Virus record (IMG/VR): IMGVR_UViG_3300020477_000075
Span: 1 to 35,083 of that record
Length of the DNA: 35,083 bases
Source: a virus
Direction: 5' to 3' (one strand)
This document shows, piece by piece, positions 1,112 to 33,605 of the stretch. The notes under the pieces were generated by a model. That model had not been told where the DNA came from. It made no database searches and saw only the letters and a program-made list of their open reading frames with translations. Position 1 is the stretch's first letter, and each line of letters starts with the position of its first letter. The position numbers and the translations under genes were made by a program.

Positions 1112-1605
1112 TACAAGTGCGTGATAGCCAGATAAGGAAACCTCTGCGGCTTGGACATGTCAGTCCGCAAGTTAATTCGCTTTTCCGGCATCACAACCTG
1201 CTCACGACACTGGCGTGGGCTTCACTGTCCGAGGCATCGGGTCGCAGTGAATGAGAGCGTGGTTGATCGCCACACTCACCAGTGCAATACAACGCCGCTC
1301 CCCTTTAGTAAAGTGAAAGCCTAACGTCTGCTACTGGGGTATAAACGCGGCACAATACAATGGCTTGGCGTAGTGCGCCGGTTGATAAGCCACTGAACTG
1401 ATAGATAGGACACGAAACCGAGGATGCCCCGAGGGGCGGTTAACCAAATCGGTGGATACGATGGGACAGCTTAGTCCCTCCAGTTCAGTGCAATCGGTAG
1501 GGGTGCAAATCCCCTGCAAGTCGCCACACAATTATCCCGCGCTTGATGCGCGGTTCACCAGCAGCCTCGCCGGTTTCCTTTCGTGCCGGTTTGAGGCTGC
1601 TATAT
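1112..1605 (+). ncRNA. Candidate large structured RNA with tRNA-like 3' domain
   Basis: No open frame is convincing over about 490 nt, but self-complementary segments follow one another. GTGAT/ATCAC with GCC/GGC and AGGAAA/TTTTCC (1121-1194). A junction of TTCACTG/CAGTGAA (1221-1251) and GTGG/CCAC inside ACTGG/CCAGT (1209-1283). GCCGC/GCGGC with CCCC/GGGG (1294-1351). A perfect 10-bp helix CACTGAACTG/CAGTTCAGTG (1391-1490) enclosing GGGAC/GTCCC. Then a T-arm-like hairpin AGGGG-TGCAAAT-CCCCT (1499-1515), GCAAGTC, a discriminator-like G and CCA (1524-1526). GGCTTG (1362-1367) can pair with CAAGTC (1517-1522) as an acceptor stem. A terminator hairpin closes the region. RNA class not recognised. 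Confidence 0.5.
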
Positions 1606-7469: not shown

Positions 7470-7633
7470 CAAATGAACAAGTTGACGCTATTACACACGC
7501 ATGGCTGGACTGTATGGCTGTAGCTCACATAGGTGAGTCAGACGTAGACTTAGGAAGTTTGGCGGAGGCTGGGAGAGATAGCGCACAGGAATTAGAAGAT
7601 GCGTTTCCGTGGTTGAATGAGAAGAGGGTGTGA
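7454..7633 (+). CDS. Small hypothetical protein (59 aa)
   Basis: Not recognised. ATG 7454 (MPDNLTNEQVDAITHAWLDC) is preferred over a GTG at 7436; the ribosome-binding site is a weak GGGAG about 14 nt upstream. Helical and acidic. Last member of the small-gene chain; the boundary repeat at 7662 follows. Confidence 0.5.
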   Translation: MPDNLTNEQVDAITHAWLDCMAVAHIGESDVDLGSLAEAGRDSAQELEDAFPWLNEKRV

Positions 7634-7661
7634 CATGGTGGAGTACCTTGAATAATATATC

Positions 7662-7690
7662 AAAAAACGCCCCGCAATTTTTGTGCCAAA
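7662..7690 (-). repeat. Boundary repeat copy C
   Basis: AAAAAACGCCCCGCAATTTT then TGTGCCAAA, reverse complement of copy A with one change in the GC core. Lies between the small-gene chain and the promoter at 7742. Confidence 0.7.
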
Positions 7691-7741
7691 AAGTTTTTCG
7701 CAAAACTCTGGTTTTTCTGGTAATTATCTCAAGGTTAGAGC

Positions 7742-7769
7742 TTGACTTTGCCGATATATATGATAGAAT
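7742..7769 (+). promoter_or_regulatory. sigma70-like promoter with CGATA spacer
   Basis: TTGACT (7742-7747), 16-nt spacer TTGCCGATATATATGA, TAGAAT (7764-7769). Both boxes are one base off consensus but the spacer motif is intact. Confidence 0.7.
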
Positions 7770-7797
7770 GGTAGTGTAACAACAAAGGAGATTGACC

Positions 7798-8072: not shown

Positions 8073-9272
8073 ATGAATTACGAAAAATTGCAAATGACCG
8101 CTGACAAGTCCGAAGGTTCCTTCGTTAGGAATCTGGAAGGTAAGACTGGCGTGGGGTTCGCTGAGAATCATCATGTCCATAAGGACTGGTACGCCACAAC
8201 GATGTCTTACGACGATGCGTTGGAACTGGCGTATGATGCTGCCCGTGACCGTGAGGATATTCTCGCACCTGTCAAGGATATTCAAGGTTCTGTCGATTCT
8301 GACGGCAACTTTGTTTTTAAGGTTGGTGACCGTGAGTTTATCCCAACCGACCATGCCATTGAGCAATTCGCAATTAGGGCTGGCGTTCCATCGTCTAGCG
8401 TTATGCGTGAACTGCGAAAGCAGGAAGATTATGACGCACAAGATGCTGACGTTATGACCTATCTTGCCAACAATGCTTTGCGTCGATTGAATCAGGATAA
8501 AGAGTATCGCTTGCGGACTTACACTGATGGGACTTGCCGCGCATTTGTGACTGACAAGTACGCACCAGTTGACAACCGTTGGTATCTTGAGACTCTCCAA
8601 GAGTTCATGCCTGAAGGCCGTTTGTCCCACTGGAAGGGCGACGAGGATACTATATATGGTAACATCCTTCTGCCTGATACCATTCTGGATTATGGTACTG
8701 ACGACGATTCTGACTACGGTGGAATGATTAGCATTGGTAACTGTGAGATTGGTAAACGCCGTATCTCTCAGACTCCAAGCCTGTTCCGTTCCATTTGCCT
8801 GAATGGTTGTATCTGGGGTCAAGTGTCTGGCAAGCAGATTCGTCGCCGTCACATTGGTACGATTGACTTGGAAGCGTTGAAGGTTGAGATTGGTGAGAAC
8901 ATTGAACACCAGTTGCCATTGTTGCCTAACGGTATCACCAAGTTCCTCGCTATGCGTGAATTTGAGAATGGCGATGTGTCGATGAAAAACATCATTGCCG
9001 CTGTCTGTAAGGATGAGCGATTCACCAAGCGTGAAGCGTCAACGGTTCTTGAGCAGTTCGTTACCTACGAGAACCATGAGCGTAACCTGTTCGGGGTTGT
9101 CAACGCAATCACGAGAGCAGGTCAAGAGTTTGACTCTGCTACATGGGTGAAGTTCGACGAAGTTGGCGGTAGCCTGATTGATACTGACGCAAGCCGATGG
9201 TCTGCGATTCTCAAGCGTGCCGATTCAATGCAGGATAAGGACTTTGAGAAAGTCTTTATGACTGCGGTTTAG
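8073..9272 (+). CDS. DUF932-like phage protein (399 aa)
   Basis: Looks like the phage/plasmid DUF932 group, whose role is unknown. Supporting segments: YRLRTYTDGTCRAFVTDKYA followed by PVDN (about residues 147-170), YGGMISIGNCEIGKRRISQT, FRSICLNGCIWG and RRRHIGTID in the middle. Acidic N-terminus, no signal peptide. ATG 8073 has GAAAGG at the usual spacing; an in-frame ATG at 8058 lacks one. Uses CGT for most Arg codons, unlike the AGA-rich genes further right. A GC-rich terminator follows. Confidence 0.6.
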   Translation: MNYEKLQMTADKSEGSFVRNLEGKTGVGFAENHHVHKDWYATTMSYDDALELAYDAARDREDILAPVKDIQGSVDSDGNFVFKVGDREFIPTDHAIEQFAIRAGVPSSSVMRELRKQEDYDAQDADVMTYLANNALRRLNQDKEYRLRTYTDGTCRAFVTDKYAPVDNRWYLETLQEFMPEGRLSHWKGDEDTIYGNILLPDTILDYGTDDDSDYGGMISIGNCEIGKRRISQTPSLFRSICLNGCIWGQVSGKQIRRRHIGTIDLEALKVEIGENIEHQLPLLPNGITKFLAMREFENGDVSMKNIIAAVCKDERFTKREASTVLEQFVTYENHERNLFGVVNAITRAGQEFDSATWVKFDEVGGSLIDTDASRWSAILKRADSMQDKDFEKVFMTAV

Positions 9273-16363: not shown

Positions 16364-16701
16364 GGGGGTGAAAAGGCATCGACAGGTAATAAAAGTATTA
16401 GTTGCATTGACTGGTTGATCGGTAGGCCAGTATAAAAACCGATTAAAGTTCTAAGTGCCGAAAAGAATTTCGCACTAGCCGCTTAGCGGCAGGGGGTTGC
16501 GTAAACCTTCTTACCCAATTACGCTGACTCCGATAATCGGATAGAGTTTTCTCACTTGAAGTAAAGGAGGGTGATGGCAATAATTTGTCTGATTCAGGTA
16601 ATTCCTGATAGCTTTGTCTTTTGTGCGACTACAATAGACTAACAATGTAGATACTAGTGTGGATATTATACTGGACGCGGGTTCGATTCCCGCCGCCTCC
16701 A
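16364..16701 (+). ncRNA. ssrA: tmRNA, tag AEKNFALAA
   Basis: Rescues stalled ribosomes and tags nascent peptides for proteolysis. 5' end GGGGGTGAAAAGGCATCGAC and 3' end GCGGG-TTCGATT-CCCGC then CGCCTCC-A make the tRNA-like domain (acceptor GGGGGTG/CGCCTCC, two G-U pairs); CCA is not encoded. Pseudoknot PK1 is visible: ACTGG (16410-16414)/CCAGT (16427-16431) with ATCGGT/ACCGAT (16438-16443). The tag frame starts at GCC 16457 and reads A-E-K-N-F-A-L-A-A-stop (16457-16486), ending in the ALAA degron recognised by ClpXP. One-piece, full length. Hsp20 follows. Confidence 0.95.
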
Positions 16702-18344: not shown

Positions 18345-19568
18345 ATGGGATTACACGAAGATTCGGTGGTCGTGGACTTGCATACACACCCATGTATAAA
18401 AGCTTCTATATTTCATAGAGACCTAGGCTCTAGACGTAAAAAGTTTTTAGCGGAACTATTTAAGCGTAAATTCTGGCCGCTCAGCAACAGAGCTTCCTTC
18501 CCTTTATTGATTGAAGGTGGTACAGATATTATATTATCTACGGCATACGTACCTGAAGGTGGCTGGTATAGCGACATGAGGCTTGCTAGATGGTTAATAA
18601 ACCTAGCCCCGAGAGTTAAAAAGAAAATCTACAAGTCACCCTACTTCAACGCTATAATGACAGTGTTAGACGATGTTGAAGAGCAGGTTCTTTCTTGGAA
18701 CGCTAGTCAAGAACCGAAGAAAATTAAGATATGCCGAAATCCCAGAGATCTCAAGAAAGCATTAAAGGACGACTTGTTCTGCCTCATCCATTCGGTTGAA
18801 GGCGCGCACTCACTAGAAACAAAATCTGCATCTGACTATCCCGACGATATTAAAAGAGGTCTACACGGTAGAGCGCAGATGCTGGAAAACTTAGACATAT
18901 TAAACAACAGAGGTGTTGCATATTTAACCTTAGCACACTTCTACCCCAATGCATGTGTTAACCCAGTTTTTCCATGGCCTGAGTACGCTTTTAATCACGG
19001 CGACTGGAAAGGGCTATTATCAAAATGGGATGAGACGCTAGGTCTTACATCCAGAGGTGAAGCTGTTGTTGAAAAAATGTTAGATCTAGGAATGTTGATA
19101 GATATATCACACTGCACGTTAAGTGCAAGGAAAAGAATATATGACATAGCTTCCCACCACAAGAAAAAACAGTGTATATTAGCTACACACTCAGGAGCAT
19201 TTGGCGTTAACAGAAATACCTACAACCTACACGATTGGGAACTAAAGTGGCTAGCTGATAATGGTGGAGTTGTTGGTATTATTTTCATGAACTACTGGCT
19301 CACTCCTCACACCACAGACCTTGGCTTAAAATATATAGAAGAAACGATGAGCCACATGACAAATGTGGCGGGTGAAGATGTCGTCAGTATAGGTACAGAC
19401 TTTGACGGATTCACAGACCCGCCAGATGAAATTGTAGACGCTTCACAGATGCCTAGGATAACAAAATATCTTCAGGCAACAGGACATAGAGATGAAGCTA
19501 TTAGTAAATTCTTAGGCGGCAACGCTTTGAGATTGTTGTTGGAGGGCTGGAAAGGCTCTCCTGTTTAA
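18345..19568 (+). CDS. Membrane dipeptidase, peptidase M19 family (407 aa)
   Basis: Zinc-dependent amidohydrolase-fold dipeptidase. VVDLHTHP (about 8-15) supplies the HxH zinc ligands, HSVEGAHSL (about 148-156) the bridging Glu, MLIDISHCTL and ILATHSGAFGVN the two later His ligands, and VVSIGTDFDGF (about 347-357) the catalytic Asp; GGNALRLL is the usual C-terminal motif. Full length. No signal peptide, so probably cytoplasmic. Known members cleave dipeptides, including D-amino-acid-containing ones. Its place between a two-helix membrane protein and a holin-sized protein suggests a link to peptidoglycan, which is inference. Confidence 0.9.
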   Translation: MGLHEDSVVVDLHTHPCIKASIFHRDLGSRRKKFLAELFKRKFWPLSNRASFPLLIEGGTDIILSTAYVPEGGWYSDMRLARWLINLAPRVKKKIYKSPYFNAIMTVLDDVEEQVLSWNASQEPKKIKICRNPRDLKKALKDDLFCLIHSVEGAHSLETKSASDYPDDIKRGLHGRAQMLENLDILNNRGVAYLTLAHFYPNACVNPVFPWPEYAFNHGDWKGLLSKWDETLGLTSRGEAVVEKMLDLGMLIDISHCTLSARKRIYDIASHHKKKQCILATHSGAFGVNRNTYNLHDWELKWLADNGGVVGIIFMNYWLTPHTTDLGLKYIEETMSHMTNVAGEDVVSIGTDFDGFTDPPDEIVDASQMPRITKYLQATGHRDEAISKFLGGNALRLLLEGWKGSPV

Positions 19569-27055: not shown

Positions 27056-27201
27056 GTCTTGAACTAAGCAAAAGACTTTGCATCCTCTTCGGTTTTACAA
27101 ACCTAATCCTTGGATTAACCGTAAGGTCTAACTTCAACCTAGGTATAGCTATCTTGATGTTTTTATGGGTTGCATTTCTTGAATATAGTGGAGTGGAATA
27201 G
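27052..27201 (+). CDS. Small membrane protein (49 aa)
   Basis: Two hydrophobic stretches (LCILFGFTNLILGLTV; LGIAILMFLWVAFLEY) separated by a short polar turn. Not recognised. Overlaps its neighbours by 4 nt (CATGAG) and 1 nt (TAGTG), so translation is coupled through to GMP reductase. Confidence 0.55.
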   Translation: MSLELSKRLCILFGFTNLILGLTVRSNFNLGIAILMFLWVAFLEYSGVE

Positions 27202-28253
27202 TGAAGTTTGAAGACGGGATTAAACTAGACTTTGATGACGTTTTAATTAAACCCAAGAGGTCTACCTTAGCTACTAGGTCTGGCGTAGATATTGAAAGAT
27301 CTTACAGATATCTCCATTGCAAGTGGTGGGAATCAACTATTCCTATAATAGCTGCCAATATGGACACGACAGGGACTTTTGCAATGTCAAATTCCCTTGA
27401 AGGTTTTGAAACAATGGGAATGCAAACAGCCCTACATAAACACTATAGCCTAGATGATTTAGCTGGATTCTTTTCCTCTGGGTGGTGTACAAACACTTGG
27501 TATACTATAGGAATTAAGGAAGAAGATGTTAAGAAACTCATAGCGGTAGACGATATTGTTCGATCCAGATGCCCCACGTCAGTGGGACTTGGAATAGAAA
27601 GAATATGTATTGATGTAGCCAACGGATATCAAAAGGTTTTTGTTGACCATGTTAGGCGTGTCAGAAACCTATTTCCCCATTCCGTTATAATGGCTGGCAA
27701 TGTTTGCACTCCCGAGATGGTAAGTGAGCTATTAATTAGTGGTGGAGCAGACATAGTTAAGATTGGTATCGGGCCGGGGTCTGTTTGTGCTACAAGAAAG
27801 ATTACCGGGTGTGGATATCCACAACTATCAGCTATAATAGAGTGTGCTGATGCTGCCCATGGTGTGGGTGGCCATATATGCGCTGACGGTGGTTGCAGAG
27901 AAGCTGGCGATGTAGTTAAAGCTTTCGCTGCTGGAGCGGACTTTGTTATGCTAGGAGGCATGCTTGCTGGAACAGATGAGTGTGAAGGGGAATGGGAATA
28001 CTCAGATGGCGGCGAAAAGGTCGCCTTAAAGTTCTACGGGATGTCAAGTGAAGAAGCTATGAACAAACATGGGTCGGGAATGGGTTCCTACAGGGCATCT
28101 GAAGGCATTGTAAAATCAGTCCCCTACAAAGGCTCGGTATCAAGAATACTACAGGAGATAACTGGCGGCATAAGAAGCGCTTGCGCTTATGTTGGAGCGC
28201 CCACCCTAAAAGATTTACCTAAATGCGCCACATTTGTTGTAAGGAGAAAGTAA
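27201..28253 (+). CDS. guaC: GMP reductase (350 aa)
   Basis: Converts GMP to IMP with NADPH, salvaging guanine nucleotides. IMPDH/GMPR barrel: LDFDDVLIKPKRST near the N-terminus, IPIIAANMDTTG (about 48-59), IGIGPGSVCATRKITGCGYP (about 187-206) with the catalytic Cys, GGHICADGGCREAGDVVKAF, GADFVMLGGM, then FYGMSSEEAMNKHG and YRASEGIVKSVPYKG, a block typical of GMPR rather than IMPDH. No CBS domains. Length matches bacterial GuaC (about 347 aa). GTG start overlaps the upstream stop. Confidence 0.93.
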   Translation: MKFEDGIKLDFDDVLIKPKRSTLATRSGVDIERSYRYLHCKWWESTIPIIAANMDTTGTFAMSNSLEGFETMGMQTALHKHYSLDDLAGFFSSGWCTNTWYTIGIKEEDVKKLIAVDDIVRSRCPTSVGLGIERICIDVANGYQKVFVDHVRRVRNLFPHSVIMAGNVCTPEMVSELLISGGADIVKIGIGPGSVCATRKITGCGYPQLSAIIECADAAHGVGGHICADGGCREAGDVVKAFAAGADFVMLGGMLAGTDECEGEWEYSDGGEKVALKFYGMSSEEAMNKHGSGMGSYRASEGIVKSVPYKGSVSRILQEITGGIRSACAYVGAPTLKDLPKCATFVVRRK

Positions 28254-32371: not shown

Positions 32372-32601
32372 TGATTCCTGAAGATTCAGACCCTCAAGAA
32401 TCTCCTGAGCAAACAATAATAAAACTGGCTGCGATATTAGAAGATCTTGTCAACTCAGGAAAATCTGAATTTGTTGCGAGAGTCGTAACAAAACTTCAAC
32501 TGGATTATATTGAGCTTGCCAGACTAGCTACTGATGATCAATACGATGTACAGTGGACTCACATTAAGCTCATGGACTTTTTAACAAAAGGCGAATTCTA
32601 A
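32371..32601 (+). CDS. Small helical hypothetical protein (76 aa)
   Basis: Not recognised. Acidic N-terminus (MIPEDSDPQESPEQTIIKLA) and helical remainder. ATG and stop overlap both neighbours by 1 nt (TAATG), so it is coupled to the GAPDH gene. Confidence 0.6.
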   Translation: MIPEDSDPQESPEQTIIKLAAILEDLVNSGKSEFVARVVTKLQLDYIELARLATDDQYDVQWTHIKLMDFLTKGEF

Positions 32602-33605
32602 TGAAACCCCATATAAATGTCGGTGTTTTTGGGTATGGCACCATAGGTAAAAGAGTAGCCGATGCCGTCCTATTGCAACCAGATATGAACCTAGTAGGGG
32701 TCACTGCTAATAGCTACAATTTTAAGATCAAGACCGCTCACGAAAAGGGCATCCCAATCTTTTCTGATATTGAAGGATTTGTACATGTAGAACATGGGCT
32801 GCGAGTAGCTGGTAGCGTAGACGACCTGATAAGCAAAAGTGATGTAGTTGTTGACTGTACACCAAAAGGTGCAGCAGAAAGAAACACCTCTAGATATAAG
32901 AAGTACAATACCAAGGCTATATTCCAAGGTGGAGAGCCAAGCTCATGTGGGAAAAGCTTTGTGTCTCAATGCAATTACGAAGATTGCGTTGGTCATGAGT
33001 TTATTCGTGTTGTAAGCTGTAACACAACAGGGCTTTGTAGGACTCTAGACGCATTACATTGGAAATACGGGGTAGATAAAGTTCATGCGACTATGATACG
33101 AAGAGCTGCTGACCCTTGGGATATATATCATGGCCCCGTTAACGCCCTTGTTCCGCACTTAATCGTACCATCCCATCACGGGCCAGACGTAAGAACAGTT
33201 CTTGAGGATATGGAAATTTTTACAACTTCAATATCTGTACCAACCACACTGATGCATCTCCACAGCATAACGGTTGATCTTAATAAAAAGCCTAGTGTTG
33301 ATGGTGTTGTTGGACTTTTTGATGCATCTACTAGAGTCAGGGTAGTCAAAAACTCTGACGGCATACGATCTACCGCTGAGATTATGGAATACGCAAAAGA
33401 CTTAGGGAACAGTAGGGGTGACATGCCAGAGGTTTGCGTTTGGGAGGAAACTATGGGAGTTTGGGGGAATAAGCTTTTATACATACAAGCCGTTCACCAA
33501 GAAAGCGATGTTGTCCCAGAAAACATTGACGCTATAAGATGCCTCATGGGAACCAGCTCATCAGCTAGCATTGAGTTAACAAACAAAACTTTAGGATTAT
33601 TTTAG
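32601..33605 (+). CDS. Archaeal-type (class II) glyceraldehyde-3-phosphate dehydrogenase (334 aa)
   Basis: Phosphorylating NAD(P)-dependent GAPDH of the archaeal class (Methanothermus fervidus type). Rossmann loop VFGYGTIGKRVADAV (9-23), VVVDCTPKG (82-90), AIFQGGE, the active site RVVSCNTTGLCRTL with nucleophile Cys140, IRRAADPWD, PSHHGPDVRTVL, and VPTTLMHLH with the general base His219, both at the positions known in the archaeal enzyme. C-terminal AEIMEYAKDLGNSRGDMPEV and YIQAVHQESDVVPENIDAIR are also conserved. Full length and apparently intact. It ends the operon. The physiological substrate in a phage is open. Confidence 0.93.
   Translation: MKPHINVGVFGYGTIGKRVADAVLLQPDMNLVGVTANSYNFKIKTAHEKGIPIFSDIEGFVHVEHGLRVAGSVDDLISKSDVVVDCTPKGAAERNTSRYKKYNTKAIFQGGEPSSCGKSFVSQCNYEDCVGHEFIRVVSCNTTGLCRTLDALHWKYGVDKVHATMIRRAADPWDIYHGPVNALVPHLIVPSHHGPDVRTVLEDMEIFTTSISVPTTLMHLHSITVDLNKKPSVDGVVGLFDASTRVRVVKNSDGIRSTAEIMEYAKDLGNSRGDMPEVCVWEETMGVWGNKLLYIQAVHQESDVVPENIDAIRCLMGTSSSASIELTNKTLGLF

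Follow-up and report, generated by a model that had tools for sequence, protein, structure and literature searches.

A tRNA-shaped RNA in a modular RNA cassette upstream of gp88 in uncultured phages

Results

Genomic setting of the cassette

The window, by which we mean the whole 35,083-nt stretch of viral DNA analysed here (IMG/VR record IMGVR_UViG_3300020477_000075), is part of contig C13, itself contained in a 1.36-Mb bin. C13 encodes a DnaB helicase, a primase, a UvsX-like recombinase, a ribonucleotide reductase and gp88; because these genes are of phage type, C13 is a phage contig and the host assignment of the bin is uncertain. The window also encodes a membrane dipeptidase (M19; 18345-19568), an IMP dehydrogenase (27201-28253) and a GAPDH-like protein (32601-33605), while two DUF1501 proteins and a member of the ornithine cyclodeaminase family are encoded in the other half of C13. 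Three tRNAs are identified in the window by ARAGORN and Rfam, together with the real tmRNA named in the earlier note. This phage tmRNA (16364-16704) carries the tag AEKNFALAA, and that of the L026 phage carries AEKQFALAA.

The RNA cassette begins directly after a very acidic 70-aa ORF (899-1111) that has no Pfam match. Like all features described below, the ORF lies on the + strand. Upstream is a sigma-70-type promoter, TTGACA-16-TATAAT (750-777), which matches the consensus at 12 of 12 positions and, judged from sequence, would drive a transcript carrying both the ORF and the cassette. The 5′ leader of the ORF (781-898) is structured and carries the motif TAGGGTTAAGAGCCACTG, which resembles motifs of contigs L090 and L091 as well as the segment GGTTGATAAGCCACTG of the tRNA-shaped domain described below. 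On the 3′ side, sequence and fold reveal a terminator-like hairpin, AGCAGCCTC..GAGGCTGCT followed by ATATTTTT (1560-1610); it is missing from the terminator-pattern listing, its loop being larger than the tool's pattern admits. Just 3′ of this hairpin lies a repeated intergenic element (1605-1639), with copies at positions 54531 and 56475 of C13 and in L004 and L011.

Downstream follows the gp88 gene (1829-2611; PF17338, Pfam 3.6e-38). We collected relatives of the locus through gp88 and through DNA patterns; all are uncultured metagenomic contigs, and the sequences available for comparison are few and related to one another. At every locus that has both, gp88 follows the tRNA-shaped RNA on the same strand, at a distance of 0.1-6 kb. 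The AlphaFold model of gp88 (pLDDT 92) has no PDB match at E < 0.001, and gp88 therefore does not explain the RNA.

Three separable RNA domains

The earlier note had described the region as a single structured RNA of 490 nt at 1112-1605. BLAST against relatives and comparison of their sequences instead resolve three conserved RNA domains: domain A (1113-1285), the hairpin HP (1294-1351) and a tRNA-shaped RNA, TLS (1362-1523). Because these domains stand alone or recombined in related phage contigs, the locus is a cassette rather than one 490-nt RNA. All three are combined in the window, L004 and L019. Domain A is joined to a different TLS in L009 and has no adjoining TLS in L011 and L093. HP is followed by TLS in L024, comes second after TLS in L070, precedes another tRNA-like unit in L016, L023, L025 and L026, and occurs by itself in L090 and L092. 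TLS occurs by itself in L097, L013, L014, L020 and C7.

Between 1112 and 1605, ARAGORN and Rfam detect nothing. GOLLD and ROOL are large structured phage RNAs often found near tRNA genes (PMC12286853), and the earlier note had raised them as possible relatives. That kinship fails: at the gathering score or at E values up to 10, Rfam returns no GOLLD, ROOL, RNase P RNA, riboswitch or intron match, and the window's domains, unlike those RNAs, are short and separable. The observation of the earlier note is thus real, and the tRNA-shaped RNA, carried by a marine phage, had not been catalogued before.

Domain A is a multi-branched junction RNA closed by the helix GTGC/GTGC, with homologues in L004, L019, L009, L011 and L093. 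Over six sequences the consensus fold has 59 predicted pairs, 13 of them with compensatory changes; this support is good, yet the L011 row aligns poorly in the 5′ part. The relatives keep no protein frame across the domain. By eye its 3′ arm had seemed tRNA-like, an impression that was dropped since the loop is not kept in L093.

HP is a 58-nt hairpin, GCCGC..GCGGC, whose loop GTGAAAGCCTAAC and 3′ bulge TATAAAC are nearly invariant across 11 aligned sequences. Its outer and inner stems covary in the same alignment, with seven pairs changed on both sides; none of 500 shuffles reaches the covariation score, and slid controls are at most 54.5% paired. The HP covariance model (R3) matches 12 loci, and in L016 an extra hairpin sits within the loop. 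A strict HP pattern is absent from GTDB genomes. A looser pattern gives eight matches there, in unrelated hosts, which we regard as chance. HP and domain A are two further candidate Rfam families.

Architecture of the tRNA-shaped domain

The third domain runs, 5′ to 3′, through a 6-bp acceptor stem, a D-like mini-hairpin, helix P2a, a bulge, helix P2b, a variable tip and a T arm, back to the acceptor; we delimit it from the acceptor through the discriminator using covariance models R1 and R2 and 11 sequences. The acceptor GGCTTG/CAAGTC (1362-1367/1517-1522) and the T arm AGGGG-TGCAAAT-CCCCT (1499-1515, loop 1504-1510) are both present as first noticed. All six acceptor pairs covary, with 100% of cells paired; the acceptor sequence differs among relatives. 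In the T arm four of six pairs covary, and the loop motif T[GT][CT]RA is common to 11 of 11 copies. The D-like mini-hairpin (1368-1376) has the loop GTAGT with an AG; both of its pairs covary, the loop having been compared by eye.

Where a tRNA has its anticodon arm, TLS has a long structured arm. The 7-bp helix P2a, CCGGTTG/CAATCGG (1378-1384/1491-1497), covaries in six of seven pairs and leads into a 6-nt bulge, ATAAGC (1385-1390), conserved in the alignment of the 11 copies with consensus AURRGN. Next comes P2b, which is the 10-bp helix of the earlier note and lies exactly at 1391-1400/1481-1490; it is complete in the window, but relatives keep only about six of the ten pairs, the outer ones. 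The proposal that this helix replaces the anticodon arm in the manner of tmRNA holds in outline, except that the arm is longer, with P2a and the bulge added. In TLS of the window type, the tip comprises a helix ACCGA/TCGGT (1417-1421/1449-1453) with covarying pairs, which encloses the hairpin GCCCCGAGGGGC (1426-1437), and a second hairpin, GGGAC-AGCTTA-GTCCC (1463-1478), in which one pair covaries from GC to AU.

A discriminator-like G and an encoded CCA (1523-1526) do follow the acceptor in the window, yet CCA is no defining feature: the equivalent positions read GCCT in L019 and L009, ACCG in L070 and AGCC in L013, and 3′ of the acceptor there is mostly N and then CC.

The two loops vary together. 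A T-loop with U54-G55-C56 co-occurs with xAG in the D-like loop, and U54-U55-C56 (L009, L070 and C7) co-occurs with UGG. Such a pattern is as expected if the loops dock like a tRNA elbow, although this by-eye sequence reading is based on two main lineages.

Covariation and distant relatives

Folding energy is mildly unusual against shuffled sequence, with z of -1.8 for 1113-1528 and -2.5 for 1360-1528; at these values energy alone would not prove structure, whereas covariation does. Compensatory changes were sought in homologous phage regions and found. Among six close TLS sequences, 99.1% of cells pair and eight pairs are changed on both sides. Over 11 sequences, 97.8% of cells pair and 28 of 37 pairs are changed on both sides; slid partners are at most 48.6% paired, and none of 500 shuffles equals the alignment. 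These pair counts are inflated, the alignment having been fitted to the model. Hit E-values and the fold of a single sequence are independent of that fitting, and the minimum-energy fold of the L013 TLS, computed from that sequence only, is near-tRNA.

Model R1, built only from five of the six close sequences, finds the distant L020 copy at 39.9 bits (E 1.9e-5 in 1.37 Mb). Run unfiltered, it finds the copies in L009 (34.4 bits, E 1.1e-5) and L070 (15.7 bits), in both cases where we had placed TLS by eye. Model R2, built from eight sequences, adds L013 and L014. It also finds a diverged copy (62.3 bits, E 1e-10) at 7629-7787 of a second phage contig of the same bin, C7 (G000:C7, L137; 152.7 kb), where it sits between a TTGACA/TATAAT promoter and C7's own gp88. 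The bin may thus contain two phages. A separate scan for a T arm with a distant acceptor partner recovers L009, L070, L097, L011 and L016, and nothing in shuffled sequence. Model matches of 10-26 bits and about 80 nt were set aside as ordinary tRNAs, judged by length and position.

Applied to 249 more genomes from the host order and 399 from the phylum, the TLS model finds nothing beyond the bin. TLS is likewise absent near gp88 in the cultured cyanophages S-SRM01, S-EIVl and Sf-FR1. BLAST of the region against 50,697 phage records gives no match, BLAST of the C7 TLS, the L013 TLS and the L023 unit gives nothing useful, and an exact 37-base pattern has no match in IMG/VR.

We also looked for a conserved protein frame, and relatives keep none across the region, in agreement with the lack of a credible ORF reported at the outset. 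With a fold that covaries among relatives, the core of the earlier note, a structured non-coding RNA with a tRNA-like 3′ part, is upheld, and we regard the structure of TLS as near certain. The relatives have the same fold in different letters, so that shape is what evolution has kept.

Relation to known RNA classes

Like the tRNAs of RF00005, TLS has an acceptor stacked on a T arm with a 7-nt T-loop (six acceptor and four T-arm pairs covary) and a D-like hairpin with AG or GG. It is not itself a tRNA: the place of the anticodon arm is taken by P2a, the bulge, P2b and the apical domain, and neither ARAGORN nor Rfam reports a hit. An insert flanked by tRNA-like ends might instead suggest a tRNA gene with an intron, and group I-like inserts seem to occur in phage tRNAs (L063 and L065, 493-767). 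This explanation is already contradicted, and we give it almost no weight, for neither side of the insert has an anticodon stem-loop, covariation marks the stem within the insert (P2a/P2b) as part of the RNA, and Rfam returns no group I or group II match.

The likeness to tmRNA (RF00023) extends further. In both, a long P2-like helix extends from the acceptor and T arm where a tRNA has its anticodon arm, and there is a weak D analogue; in L009 and C7 the D region, ATGGTCTCG, is tmRNA-like. TLS might accordingly be a reduced tmRNA-like RNA, with a tmRNA-derived body and a short tag frame whose UAG stop lies in a hairpin loop. The frame corresponding to window 1408-1473 ends ..VN[QL]I[GD]G[YH][NTD]G[TA]A-stop, with its TAG in the AGCTTAG hairpin loop, in the five full window-type copies. 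This shared end, ..G[YH][NTD]G[TA]A-UAG in the AGCUUA hairpin, recalls tmRNA tags, and the phage's own tmRNA tag likewise ends ..AA-UAG in a hairpin; it may also be a by-product of the stems. The frame is missing from L009, C7, L020, L070 and L013, so that the family has no common mRNA-like domain. The alanine identity pair of tmRNA is G3:U70. All 11 TLS copies have C:G or U:A at this third position of the acceptor, and none has G3:U70. TLS is also half the size of tmRNA, has no conserved tag and no pseudoknot chain, and escapes both ARAGORN and RF00023, and the phage already has its real tmRNA at 16364. We reject TLS as a tmRNA, and a reduced descendant of one is very unlikely.

Bacterial Y RNAs offer another precedent, since in YrlA a protein-binding stem is joined to a tRNA-like D/T/acceptor module (PMC8394870), much as TLS combines a tRNA-like module with a long bulged arm. 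A relative of YrlA would tether the Ro60/Rsr protein. The order of the parts is permuted, however: the ends of YrlA make the Ro stem, whereas those of TLS make the acceptor stem. No Ro60/Rsr (TROVE) protein occurs in the phage's own genome bin, which is about 90% complete, and Rfam gives no match. We consider such kinship highly improbable.

The nearest analogue in kind is T4 species 1 RNA, a small stable phage RNA of unknown function (PMC9697503). Its gene, rnaC (RNA C; NC_000866 70908-71046, L132), has a canonical T arm, CCGGG-TTCGAAT-CCCGG, near the 3′ end and belongs to no Rfam family. As in TLS, a T arm and a long non-anticodon arm occur without an anticodon. The T4 RNA differs in having a poor acceptor stem, a long variable-type hairpin 5′ of the T arm and a position in a tRNA cluster, and the TLS model does not join the two: rnaC scores 13.2 bits (E 0.32), level with T4's ordinary tRNAs.

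Proposed maturation and role

HP and stand-alone TLS copies begin 13-17 nt past a strong -10 hexamer in L016, L023, L097 and C7, which places them at transcript 5′ ends. The L097 copy starts 13 nt past a promoter hexamer pair matching at 11 of 12 positions, and the C7 copy 14 nt past TTGACA/TATAAT. Elsewhere the RNA lies 3′ of an ORF (window, L004, L019, L009, L020, L013 and L014), which is short in the window, L004, L019, L009 and L020; in L020 and L013 TLS begins directly past the stop codon.

The acceptor/T-arm part of a tRNA is what RNase P and the 3′-trimming and CCA-adding enzymes recognise. A TLS precursor should therefore be processed like a pre-tRNA. RNase P has been reported to cut the tRNA-like phage RNAs C4 and M3 as well as pre-tmRNA (PMC11143913). 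Covariation shows a tRNA-like body built from the acceptor stem, the D-like hairpin and the T arm, in which the bulged long arm with its variable tip replaces the anticodon arm. Cleavage of the precursor 5′ of G1362 and trimming back to G1523 would leave a stable product of about 162 nt and release HP and domain A from its upstream side. A CCA tail, if present, would be added by the CCA-adding enzyme, the window's encoded CCA not being general.

The arrangement behind ORFs lends itself to another interpretation, in which TLS serves as a device for processing and stability and nothing more: RNase P would cut at it to detach the mRNA or RNA domains upstream, the body would protect a 3′ end and the excised RNA would have no function of its own. 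In the window, L019, L009, L020 and L013 in particular, the RNA past the ORF could be only a 3′-UTR element of this sort. In L097 and C7, however, TLS directly follows a promoter of its own, and no upstream part exists there to be detached. The bulge and long arm are moreover conserved, whereas an RNase P signal would need no more than an acceptor/T-arm minihelix. We rate the device explanation as rather unlikely.

Having no anticodon, TLS cannot decode. Our preferred reading, to which we give a probability of roughly 60%, is that TLS is a small stable phage RNA, matured by tRNA enzymes and acting as a tRNA mimic. It is favoured by the covariation, the distant model hits, the stand-alone copies near promoters, the consistency of the elbow and the lack of a protein frame; the non-conserved CCA counts against it. 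Its most likely role would be to occupy or recruit a host tRNA-handling protein during infection, the tip being the part that exerts the effect and changes from one phage lineage to another; this is the weakest step of the proposal. More tentatively, TLS may belong to a class of phage RNA new to science, in which a tRNA chassis bears exchangeable effector arms. It would have spread in a modular cassette together with A and HP as two other new elements, and would possibly mimic tRNA to disarm a host system that handles or targets tRNAs.

To our knowledge, few RNAs other than tRNAs have a tRNA shape, namely tmRNA, Y RNAs, the ends of plant viruses and mascRNA, and we know of no function assigned to the T4 species 1 and species 2 RNAs. 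TLS adds a family backed by covariation that combines a defined tRNA body with a conserved bulge and an arm that varies, and it neighbours gp88 in a clade of uncultured marine phages. Its role can now be tested, as the given sequences allow assays of its exact ends, of the enzymes that would process it and of its binding partners.

Further tRNA-like units

Related contigs carry other units that are probably TLS-like, although model R2 does not join them to the family. A second type (L016 781-955 and L011 9346-9521) has the acceptor GCCCTGT/ACAGGGC and the T-loop TGCAATK; in L016 it is directly 3′ of HP. A third lies past HP in L023 (~760-925), L025 (~270-460) and L026 (~8120-8330), and combines a canonical D arm, TAGCTCGGTGGCATGAGC, and a T arm, GGTTCGAATCC, with a long insert containing TGGCGGGCC..TTCACCCCGT. 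The element at 493-767 of L063 and L065 is a tRNA, unrelated to TLS, whose anticodon loop holds an insert of ~200 nt resembling a group I intron.
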